Assembly (NCBI GenBank): GCA_947566125.1
Contig: CANOIR010000006.1
Location: 1 to 64,000, forward strand
From: an uncultured Ruminococcus sp.
GTDB taxonomy: Bacteria; Bacillota; Clostridia; Oscillospirales; Ruminococcaceae
DNA length: 64,000 nucleotides
Direction: 5' to 3'
Shown here: piece after piece, positions 57,001 to 58,789 of the stretch
Numbering within the stretch: the stretch's first letter is position 1
How the letters are laid out: each line of letters starts with the position of its first letter
The notes under the pieces: model-generated
Told to the model about the DNA's origin: nothing
Database searches by the model: none
The model's input: only the letters and a program-made list of their open reading frames with translations
Made by a program: the position numbers and the translations under genes

Positions 57001-57047
57001 AACCACGCAGTTTGGGAGAAATTCTGGGTTGCGTGGTTCTTTTGCTT
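57001..57047 (+). terminator. Terminator after tRNA-Thr
   Basis: AACCACGCA pairs with TGCGTGGTT, followed by a CTTTTGCTTTTG tail. Confidence 0.8.
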
Positions 57048-57058
57048 TTGTTATATTA

Positions 57059-57349
57059 TTATCTCTGCTCACAACTCGAATCAACCGTATTTGTAAGATT
57101 TAAAATTTTGCATATGTAATCGTCTGCAATCTCAATAAGCGTGAATATACGTTCATATTCTGAGTACCATTTAAAAGATTGTATGCTTTCAATTGTACTG
57201 CTTTTTCCGGTTAAGCAGGCAAGTGCCTTTTGTGGATCTGGCTTCTTTGCAAAACCGTAATCTGCAATAAATTCCGATGTGGCAATCTCTGCACATTTTG
57301 CCAATGCTTTAATATCATCTAATCTGTCAAGAAGTTCAACGGTTTTCAT
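57059..57349 (-). CDS. Small protein of unknown function, intact module copy 1
   Basis: 96 aa, starting MKTVELLDRLDDIKALAKCA; no family recognised. Predicted helical and cytoplasmic, with two Cys in the first half and a Trp/Tyr-rich centre (SFKWYSEYERIF). AAAGGAATTTTTAAA precedes the ATG. I see no strong promoter of its own, so it is probably read from the RHH gene upstream (127 bp away), across a region transcribed in the other direction as a small RNA. A shortened second copy lies at 57742-57858. Confidence 0.7.
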   Translation of the reverse strand: MKTVELLDRLDDIKALAKCAEIATSEFIADYGFAKKPDPQKALACLTGKSSTIESIQSFKWYSEYERIFTLIEIADDYICKILNLTNTVDSSCEQR

Positions 57350-57374
57350 TTTAAAAATTCCTTTCTATCATAAC

Positions 57375-57403
57375 TTGACAAAAAGGCTAATCTGATGTAT
57401 AAT
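57375..57403 (+). promoter_or_regulatory. Antisense promoter P-sRNA1 with operator-like inverted repeat
   Basis: TTGACA (57375-57380), 17-bp spacer, TATAAT (57398-57403). Arms 57377-57395 and 57409-57427 are complementary at 17 of 19 positions and centre on the -10 box. Confidence 0.75.
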
Positions 57404-57409
57404 AAATTT

Positions 57410-57486
57410 CAGATAAGACTTTTTGTCTTTGGTTGATAACGGTAACACTTTACTTCCTACGGTGCGGTGTTATCGTTATTTTTTTA
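57410..57486 (+). ncRNA. Predicted antisense small RNA 1
   Basis: About 77 nt from the predicted start to the T-run. A small hairpin AAGAC-TTTTT-GTCTT is followed by a terminator hairpin (AACGGTAACAC with GTGTTATCGTT) and a long T-run that overlaps the stop codon of the convergent RHH gene. It is complementary to the leader of the 57059-57349 gene as read from the RHH promoter. No reading frame of note. Predicted only from promoter and terminator. Confidence 0.6.
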
Positions 57487-57649
57487 TTTTTTTATAGACT
57501 TCACGTATTCCCTCACGAATAATATCCGCTTTACTTTTACCAGTAACTTTAGCACAATACTCTAAAATTTCTATATCTTCATCAGACATTCTTATTCTGG
57601 TTTCGTGTTTCTTAGGGTCTGTAGTTGGTCTACCTGTTCTTGGGGACAT
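57476..57649 (-). CDS. Ribbon-helix-helix (CopG-like) regulator, copy 1
   Basis: 57 aa. MSPRTGRPTTDPKKHETRIR, then MSDEDIEILEYCAKVTGKSK, ADIIREGIREVYKKIKK: a beta strand with basic residues followed by two helices, the RHH_1 pattern. RHH proteins bind operators as dimers and usually repress their own promoter; the inverted repeat on its -10 box fits. Start 57649 follows GAGGTGAAATA. It is about 40% similar by eye to the copy at 57979-58158. Confidence 0.82.
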   Translation of the reverse strand: MSPRTGRPTTDPKKHETRIRMSDEDIEILEYCAKVTGKSKADIIREGIREVYKKIKK

Positions 57650-57666
57650 TATTTCACCTCTTTTCT

Positions 57667-57709
57667 GTGTCACCATAATTATTATAACATTTGGTGACAC
57701 TAAAGTCAA
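57667..57709 (-). promoter_or_regulatory. Promoter/operator of RHH copy 1
   Basis: TTGACT (57704-57709), 17-bp spacer, TATAAT (57681-57686) on the minus strand. A perfect 9-bp inverted repeat, GTGTCACCA (57667-57675) and TGGTGACAC (57692-57700), is centred exactly on the -10 box. Confidence 0.8.
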
Positions 57710-57710
57710 G

Positions 57711-57757
57711 CCCTATATCAAAATAAATTTGCACAAATATTTCATTTTGTCTTCTTT
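57711..57757. repeat. Direct repeat R2, left copy
   Basis: CCCTATATCAAAATAAATTT and GCACAAATATTTCATT in a row, matching 58221-58262 almost base for base. It marks the promoter-distal edge of each module. Confidence 0.85.
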
Positions 57758-57858
57758 GCAAAACCATAATCAGCAATAAATTCTAATGTAGCAATTTCTG
57801 CACATTTTGCTAATGCTTTAATATCATCTAATCTGTCAAGAAGTTCAACGGTTTTCAT
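57742..57858 (-). pseudogene. Truncated copy 2 of the unknown small gene
   Basis: 38 codons. The first 36 residues match the intact copy almost exactly (MKTVELLDRLDDIKALAKCA; Leu for Ser once), then the coding sequence runs into repeat R2 and ends at KTK. The remaining ~60 residues are missing. It keeps its ribosome binding site (AAAGGAATTTTTGAA) and could still make a short peptide. Confidence 0.7.
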
Positions 57859-57878
57859 TTCAAAAATTCCTTTCATAT

Positions 57879-57907
57879 TTGACATTTCACGAAAGGCATG
57901 ATATAAT
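57879..57907 (+). promoter_or_regulatory. Antisense promoter P-sRNA2 with operator-like inverted repeat
   Basis: TTGACA (57879-57884), 17-bp spacer, TATAAT (57902-57907). A perfect 9-bp inverted repeat, CACGAAAGG (57888-57896) and CCTTTCGTG (57919-57927), is centred 3 bp from the middle of the -10 box. Confidence 0.75.
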
Positions 57908-57913
57908 AGATTT

Positions 57914-57981
57914 ATCAACCTTTCGTGTTGGTATTTTAAGCACATTGTTTTCGTTGGTAGCGGGCACAGTGTGCTTTTTTA
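57914..57981 (+). ncRNA. Predicted antisense small RNA 2
   Basis: About 68 nt. It ends in a terminator hairpin (AAGCACATTG with CAGTGTGCTT) and a T-run that overlaps the stop codon of RHH copy 2, the same geometry as small RNA 1 although the sequences have diverged. TATCAACC near its 5' end is complementary to GGTTGATA in small RNA 1. Confidence 0.6.
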
Positions 57982-58158
57982 TTTGGGTTCTACTTCTTCC
58001 TTAACCTTTTTGATACCCAATCGAATTACGTCGCTTTTCGATAATTTGGTTTTTTCACAACAGTATTCCAAATCTTCAATAGTTTGTTTATCTGCTCGTA
58101 TTTTCAATTGAATGTCTTTCGGGTTATCAGTTAGCTTAGTACCTTTTTTGATACCCAT
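57979..58158 (-). CDS. Ribbon-helix-helix (CopG-like) regulator, copy 2
   Basis: 59 aa. MGIKKGTKLTDNPKDIQLKI, then RADKQTIEDLEYCCEKTKLS, KSDVIRLGIKKVKEEVEPK: the same strand-helix-helix layout as copy 1, with matching EDLEYC/IEILEYC and KSDVIRLGI/KADIIREGI blocks. The DNA-contacting strand differs (DIQLKIRAD against ETRIRMSD), in keeping with its different operator. Start 58158 follows GAGGTGAAC. Confidence 0.82.
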   Translation of the reverse strand: MGIKKGTKLTDNPKDIQLKIRADKQTIEDLEYCCEKTKLSKSDVIRLGIKKVKEEVEPK

Positions 58159-58179
58159 AGGTTCACCTCTTTTCTCTGG

Positions 58180-58218
58180 GTACACACACATCATATCATG
58201 TGTACACAAACCTGTCAA
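58180..58218 (-). promoter_or_regulatory. Promoter/operator of RHH copy 2
   Basis: TTGACA (58213-58218), 17-bp spacer, TATGAT (58190-58195) on the minus strand. ACACAT (58186-58191) and ATGTGT (58198-58203) form an inverted repeat within about 2 bp of the -10 centre, extended outward by GTAC. Confidence 0.75.
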
Positions 58219-58220
58219 CC

Positions 58221-58262
58221 CCTATATCAAAATAAATTTGCACAAATATTTCATTCTGCACT
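58221..58262. repeat. Direct repeat R2, right copy
   Basis: Near-identical to 57711-57757; it lies upstream of the RHH copy 2 promoter and marks the duplicated unit boundary. Confidence 0.85.
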
Positions 58263-58345: not shown

Positions 58346-58588
58346 ATGGAGATTATATATACAAAGAAAGCAGAAAAGCATATATCCAAGCTGGATAGGT
58401 CAACCAAGCACAGAATTAAAGCTGGTATAGAAGCTATCCCAAGCGGAGATATAAAACGGCTTCAAGGTGTTGTGCCTATTGCGTTTCGCTTGCGTGTTGG
58501 GGACTATAGAATTATATTTGAAATGACAACAGACAAAATTGTGATCCGTGATGTTCTTCCACGTGGAAAAGCTTACGAACGTGTATGA
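58346..58588 (+). CDS. RelE/ParE-superfamily toxin
   Basis: 80 aa. Pattern of the fold: IIYTKKAEKHISKLDR, then IKAGIEAIPSGDIKRLQG and the C-terminal strands FRLRVGDYRIIFEM and IVIRDVLPRGKAYER. Conserved Arg/Lys at RLRVGDYRI fit mRNA interferases of the RelE type. Start 58346 follows AAGGGTGA. The probable antitoxin gene follows by 12 bp, an inverted order compared with relBE. Confidence 0.82.
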   Translation: MEIIYTKKAEKHISKLDRSTKHRIKAGIEAIPSGDIKRLQGVVPIAFRLRVGDYRIIFEMTTDKIVIRDVLPRGKAYERV

Positions 58589-58600
58589 GGTGATAAAAAT

Positions 58601-58789
58601 ATGTCTACTAGAGAAATGATTTGCCATCTTGTTAATGACAGTGTACCGAATGATGAACTAGAACTTCTGTATAAGATTGTTCTAAAATTCATTCCAACAG
58701 ATGAACCAGAACTAGATGAATTGGAAGCACTGGAAAATACAGCTGATGAAACTGAATTTGTTTCACATGATGCTATCAACTGGGATTAA
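58601..58789 (+). CDS. Probable cognate antitoxin
   Basis: 62 aa, strongly acidic (many Asp and Glu), starting MSTREMICHLVNDSVPNDEL and ending with an extended EETEF-like tail. No DNA-binding motif is obvious. Position directly after the RelE-type gene, with AGGTGATAAAA before the start, is the main evidence. Confidence 0.65.
   Translation: MSTREMICHLVNDSVPNDELELLYKIVLKFIPTDEPELDELEALENTADETEFVSHDAINWD

Follow-up and report, generated by a model that had tools for sequence, protein, structure and literature searches.

Why should a bacterial chromosome carry, beside a tRNA gene, two tandem regulatory units that look like the copy-control region of a plasmid? The window analyzed here, a 64,000-nt stretch of an uncultured Ruminococcus sp. 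contig, holds such an array at 57059-58262. An earlier note, made from the sequence alone, described two minus-strand RHH genes, each with its own promoter and a small gene downstream, separated by plus-strand promoters that fire toward the RHH genes, and likened the whole to plasmid copy control. We think it probable that the array is a mobile cassette in which an RHH repressor and an antisense attenuator doubly lock a downstream gene (the payload) through a pT181-like switch, and that the payloads carried here are orphans.

The main lines of that description are borne out (Table 1). Both RHH genes are present behind promoters matching 11 of 12 positions, and the plus-strand promoters at 57375 and 57879 are perfect TTGACA-17-TATAAT matches to the sigma-70 consensus (12/12), with a predicted hairpin and U-run at the 3′ end of each sRNA overlapping the RHH stop codon. 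A small gene per unit, in contrast, holds only for unit 2, whose 96-aa ORF is intact; in unit 1, the small ORF (57742-57858) is a stub of that gene, comprising its first ~37 codons and stopping at the unit boundary. The flanks of the two units are alike (93% over 127 nt in repeat D1, 77% over 97 nt in repeat D2), and what sets the units apart is the RHH, the operator, and the terminator loop of the sRNA. The unit 2 RHH protein scores above the Pfam RHH_1 cutoff (24.1 bits vs. 20.5) and that of unit 1 below it (16 bits); PHROG 876 matches both at 1e-13 to 1e-14. All promoters, terminators, and folds given here are predicted. Near the cassette, on the plus strand, lies a ParE-family toxin gene (PF05016, 1.1e-6; 58346-58588) followed in toxin-first order by a 62-aa ORF (the pair spans 58346-58789), and directly downstream from both is a skipping-rope RNA (Rfam RF02924; 58792-58869, plus strand; 48.4 bits, cutoff 36.7).

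Table 1. Features of the tandem array, in window coordinates
Feature	Position	Strand	Basis or remark
RHH repressor gene, unit 1, 59 aa	57979..58158	-	PHROG 876, E=1e-13
Unit 1 RHH promoter	58190..58218	-	11/12, TG extended; overlapped by operator-like inverted repeat GTACACA/TGTGTAC
Promoter, antisense sRNA 1	57879..57907	+	12/12 consensus, 17-nt spacer
Antisense sRNA 1, ~66 nt	57915..57980	+	Predicted ends; terminator overlaps RHH1 stop
Truncated copy of 96-aa gene, 38 codons	57742..57858	-	95% identity over 37 aa; repeat D1
RHH repressor gene, unit 2, 57 aa	57476..57649	-	Pfam RHH_1; PHROG 876, 2e-14
Unit 2 RHH promoter	57681..57709	-	11/12
Operator-like inverted repeat GTGTCACCA-16-TGGTGACAC	57667..57700		Surrounds RHH2 -10; sequence
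Promoter, antisense sRNA 2	57375..57403	+	12/12 consensus, 17-nt spacer
Antisense sRNA 2, ~72 nt	57411..57482	+	Predicted ends; terminator overlaps RHH2 stop
Leader hairpin (pre-emptor)	57377..57427	-	Arms 57409-57427 and 57377-57395; inverted repeat I3, 89%
Attenuator/SD-sequestering hairpin, then U-run	57360..57386	-	Terminator-like site and folding; alternative to pre-emptor
Payload gene, 96 aa, predicted helical	57059..57349	-	No Pfam, NCBIfam, or PHROG match
Hairpin terminator between payload and tRNA-Thr	57001..57038	.	Predicted
Cassette-boundary motif AAATTTGCACAAATATTTCAT, unit 1	58234..58254	+	Motif count in genome
Cassette-boundary motif AAATTTGCACAAATATTTCAT, unit 2, junction to truncated gene	57725..57745	+	Motif count in genome

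The relatives of these units are found largely in phages. A blastn search of unit 2 against phages identified gut phage MT835941 (78% identity over 130 nt including the sRNA, E 1e-16), in which the RHH gene and sRNA precede an 81-aa ORF and a Bro-N-like antirepressor gene; the streptococcal prophages Javan166 and Javan362 have RHH, sRNA, a 90/91-aa ORF, and an annotated antirepressor in the same order. RHH protein searches of IMG/VR yielded 88 loci. With near-duplicate loci and those of insufficient length for the antisense promoter test set aside, 78 loci picked by RHH similarity alone were tested (72 IMG/VR contigs, the two window units, a unit on contig 28 of the source genome, MT835941, and the two Javan phages). 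Conservation of the antisense promoter in relatives, a check proposed at the outset, is pronounced: a promoter scoring at least 10/12 lies just past the RHH stop in 47 of the 78, whereas shuffling predicts 1.8 and the sense strand has 3, although the loci have common ancestry, so that locus counts are not independent events. The predicted antisense TSSs cluster +54 to +66 past the RHH stop, an sRNA terminator is present in 65/66 loci and sits at the RHH stop codon in nearly all, and predicted sRNA lengths in relatives are mostly 54-82 nt. Operator-like repeats with perfect arms of at least 9 nt accompany 25 of 66 loci (1 expected), and the RHH proteins may bind these inverted repeats in their own promoters, as Arc and CopG do. 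The candidate operators of the individual units are of GTGTACAC, GTGTCACC, and GTGTTCC types.

What follows the sRNA varies. We scanned 115 downstream ORFs from about 61 loci against Pfam and PHROGs and clustered them with phmmer. An antirepressor is encoded at 34 of these loci (L043 may have joined the antirepressor cluster by chance) and an HNH/AP2 endonuclease at 13, and a small conserved ORF stands ahead of the antirepressor or endonuclease at 13. At one locus (L065 1883-2995), a TnpB/IS605 OrfB-like gene lies behind the RHH-sRNA unit. The layout of copG, counter-transcribed RNA, and gene is real and recurs across phages and chromosomes. A mainly plasmid-like or isolated chromosomal system is not supported; most relatives found are phage cassettes governing antirepressor genes. 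A search of the open-licence literature returned no account of Gram-positive phages in which RHH, antisense RNA, and antirepressor form one cassette; an earlier description is possible.

The RNA elements provide the link to plasmids. The terminator loop CAAACUUUGGUC(A/G)GGG is common to the sRNAs of relatives and to pT181-family plasmids, and several phage sRNAs carry the loop CAAACUUUGGUCGGGG, identical to that of pT181-family ctRNAs. By blastn, two plasmids, pLUG10 and pSALNT4.9, contain the phage sRNA loop, and their rep leaders form a matching SD-plus-U-run hairpin; in pSALNT4.9, an annotated CopG gene adjoins the ctRNA-type sequence. The window sRNA loops, CGUUGGUAGCGG and CUUCCUACGGUG, are different and of the same general kind. 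The Rfam model ctRNA_pT181 (RF00242; cutoff 56) gave 44.9 and 45.7 bits for two phage-relative sRNAs and a weak 27.5 bits for window sRNA 2 (57399-57493, E 0.19-0.73). A MAFFT and RNAalifold consensus structure of the sRNAs had 0 pairs, the alignment being too divergent, and the sRNAs were instead analyzed locus by locus. Assignment of the cassette RNA to the plasmid ctRNA type is supported by the shared terminator loop and by the sub-threshold Rfam matches in relatives. A search of plasmids with the RHH proteins yielded large extrachromosomal records of C. difficile, along with chance hits, but no relative on a small plasmid, and one of the matched C. difficile records equals a listed phage record in length.

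The payload leaders are predicted to share a design in which the 3′ arm of a long hairpin can pair instead with the SD region, followed by a U-run. Within the leader segment that the sRNA does not occupy, the payload SD has an accessibility of 0.14 (n=56); for 371 other ORFs of those contigs, the value is 0.51 (p=1.7e-19). The eight positions after the payload SD hold 4.55 U residues vs. 2.17 in other ORFs (p=4e-18). When the leaders are folded without the sRNA-complementary part, SD accessibility drops by >0.2 in 45% and rises in 2%; it goes from 0.87 to 0.17 in unit 1, and equilibrium folding of unit 2 gives a modest change, from 0.32 to 0.13.

Three known systems share parts of this anatomy. 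In pMV158, as here, an RHH gene, an antisense RNA over the intergenic leader, and a governed gene downstream follow one another (copG-RNAII-repB; PMC4485353), but RNAII is 48 nt, has no U-turn loop, and blocks repB translation, and the cassette payload is not a replication initiator. The leader is closer to that of pT181 repC, with a similar ctRNA terminator loop (in the phage relatives), a pre-emptor, and a predicted SD-containing, terminator-like hairpin just ahead of the start codon with a U-run after it; in pT181, the pre-emptor otherwise prevents the attenuator hairpin from forming (PMC5703833). The RNA control of pT181 is described without an RHH repressor, and the gene governed is repC. 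The likeness to plasmid copy control stands for the layout and the ctRNA-type RNA, whereas the payload leader resembles the pT181 attenuator and not the pMV158-style translation block; we regard the plasmid analogy as largely right in mechanism.

The third system is immI of phage P22, a region named the "ant moron" (PMC2629481), in which the 70-nt sar RNA has its 3′ end overlapping the arc stop. Like arc-sar-ant, the cassette appears to be an operon headed by an RHH gene whose own promoter contains operator-like repeats, with an antisense RNA of ~70 nt between RHH and payload whose terminator lies on the RHH stop, and with an antirepressor downstream in most of the viral-contig relatives counted above, although the window payload is an orphan 96-aa protein without a family match and resembles no antirepressor. 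Further, sar starts beside ant and spans its start region, whereas the predicted start of the cassette sRNA lies ~60 nt upstream of the payload, leaving the payload ribosome-binding site uncovered, a separate attenuator hairpin holding the SD. No counterpart of mnt was seen in the cassette. In the c4-icd-ant system of P1/P7, an antisense RNA likewise governs a small ORF ahead of an antirepressor, but C4 is a processing product of that same transcript and there is no RHH gene.

Together, these elements suggest how the cassette could work. RHH bound to the inverted repeats in its own promoter would limit the RHH-payload mRNA, as we infer from Arc and CopG. The ~70-nt antisense RNA, made constitutively from inside the leader, would use its looped terminator and its own 5′ segment to pair with the leader's 5′ part, taking away the 5′ arm of the pre-emptor hairpin. 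We propose that the 3′ arm, so released, forms the payload-SD hairpin followed by the U-run, at which transcription would stop or translation would be blocked in the manner of pT181. The payload would be made only when new mRNA gets ahead of the antisense RNA, as might happen upon entry into a naive cell, and tandem copies would supply a second lock. In phages, the payload so controlled would mostly be an antirepressor; on this chromosome, two loci have the orphan 96-aa protein as payload, and a third has an ImmA-like peptidase together with a small protein.

Those other loci are on contig 28 of the same genome. One combines another RHH gene with an intact 96-aa gene, and an additional unit has an intact sRNA, lacks RHH, and lies beside a truncated gene. 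The third unit has an RHH near-identical to RHH1, a chimeric sRNA (its 5′ part resembles unit 2, its terminator unit 1), and as payload (L110 3633-4235) a 75-aa protein and an M78/ImmA-like peptidase (Pfam PF06114, 3.8e-6). ImmA is an anti-repressor protease. Four of the five copies of AAATTTGCACAAATATTTCAT in the genome are at cassette upstream ends and one is beside HicB, and on contig 28, hairpins like the 57001-57038 terminator lie where the payload ends and on the far side of HicAB. Duplication from one boundary motif to the next is the probable origin of the tandem copies. An HTH gene and a HicA/HicB-like pair (L006 4480-5151) lie beside the contig 28 cassettes, with the boundary motif and hairpin beyond. 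Judged by sequence, recurrence of the array on contig 28 together with an antisense promoter kept across separate phage loci is more than chance.

Cassettes of this kind also occur in related chromosomes. The RHH family (PHROG 876, E<=1e-10) is present in 11 of 99 related genomes, RHH-sRNA-single small ORF arrangements are common among related chromosomes, and two consecutive units precede one payload at L115, L117, L124, L128, and L132, the first-unit antisense promoter being weak in L115 and L117. A sister species has a consensus-promoter sRNA and a 76-aa payload upstream of trmO, with RHH absent. Nine RHH cassettes in relatives stand directly ahead of DUF6809 matches; DUF6809 as a dedicated payload was rejected because RHH is upstream in 1 of the 30 DUF6809 loci examined, so that it is captured only sometimes. 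The tRNA-Thr gene adjoining the window cassette retains its HAD neighbor in relatives L191-L193, and two of these have 3′ fragments of tRNA-Thr at other positions, which suggests an integration site; no such fragment was found elsewhere in the 64,000-nt window. The fragments in sister species (L184 1290-1345, L191 717-751) are att-like, and one is upstream of trmO.

Could the array be functionless debris of a decaying prophage? The truncated unit 1 gene, the contig 28 sRNA orphaned without RHH, and the adjoining tRNA-Thr, whose 3′ end recurs as fragments elsewhere in the genus, would all fit. We nonetheless consider this unlikely, given perfect promoters, intact terminators, operator-like repeats, and the recurrence in other genomes of tandem units ahead of a single payload, and given that the 96-aa gene is under apparent purifying selection, the window and contig 28 copies being 88% identical with dN 0.061, dS 0.277, and dN/dS 0.22.

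The 96-aa protein itself gives few leads. It has no Pfam, NCBIfam, or PHROG match, resembles no antirepressor, and has no relatives in the genome and viral contig collections searched; a search of 99 related genomes gave one marginal match (E 0.0096), and its confident relatives appear confined to the source genome among the genomes searched. Whether its gene has an RHH neighbor can be asked only in the source genome because no other searched genome has a convincing match; there, both intact copies have one. A reading as a type I-like toxin-antitoxin system, with the sRNA as antitoxin against a toxic 96-aa protein and RHH as an extra repressor, would explain an antisense RNA spanning the leader of a small protein, the tight double control, and the toxin-antitoxin genes nearby (ParE at 58346-58588, the HicAB-like pair at the contig 28 copy). 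Type I toxins, however, are typically small and hydrophobic (PMC2701414), whereas this protein is charged and predicted to be helical (a low-confidence AlphaFold model, pLDDT 53), the same cassette elsewhere carries antirepressors and endonucleases, and an intact sRNA without RHH persists beside a truncated gene. We find this reading decidedly unlikely.

The phage relationship allows another explanation, a chromosomal immunity array in which RHH and sRNA would silence, in trans, the antirepressors of incoming phages with the same cassette. It is improbable as a whole, and equally so in the form in which each unit, with its own RHH/operator pair and sRNA loop, acts on antirepressor mRNAs of cassette-bearing phages, whether incoming or resident, and so stops induction or superinfection. 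It accords with the 78% identity of the sRNA2 region to MT835941 (predicted pairing -79 kcal/mol), the GTGTACAC-type half site common to RHH1 and the RHH of that phage, unit flanks that are alike while RHH, operator, and loop differ, and orphan sRNAs retained in this genome and a sister species; the attenuation-driving 5′ arm, however, is unlike that of the phage, and retention of the payload is left unexplained. The remnant of an integrated rolling-circle plasmid that retained copG and ctRNA while rep was replaced or lost is very improbable and was rejected, despite the pMV158 gene order and a phage sRNA loop equal to that of pT181-family ctRNAs, because no rep or relaxase is nearby, plasmid RHH matches are C. 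difficile extrachromosomal records and chance hits, and the close relatives are phage loci, with an sRNA region 78% identical to a phage.

A mobile RHH and antisense-attenuator cassette would join, in one element spread across phages and chromosomes of Bacillota, the antisense copy control of Gram-positive plasmids and the antisense control of the P22 antirepressor. Its antisense promoter, with an RNA start 55-65 nt past the RHH stop, provides a signature with which such genes and their payloads can be searched for. If the proposal is true, a pT181-like RNA attenuator gates the lysis-lysogeny antirepressors of many gut phages.
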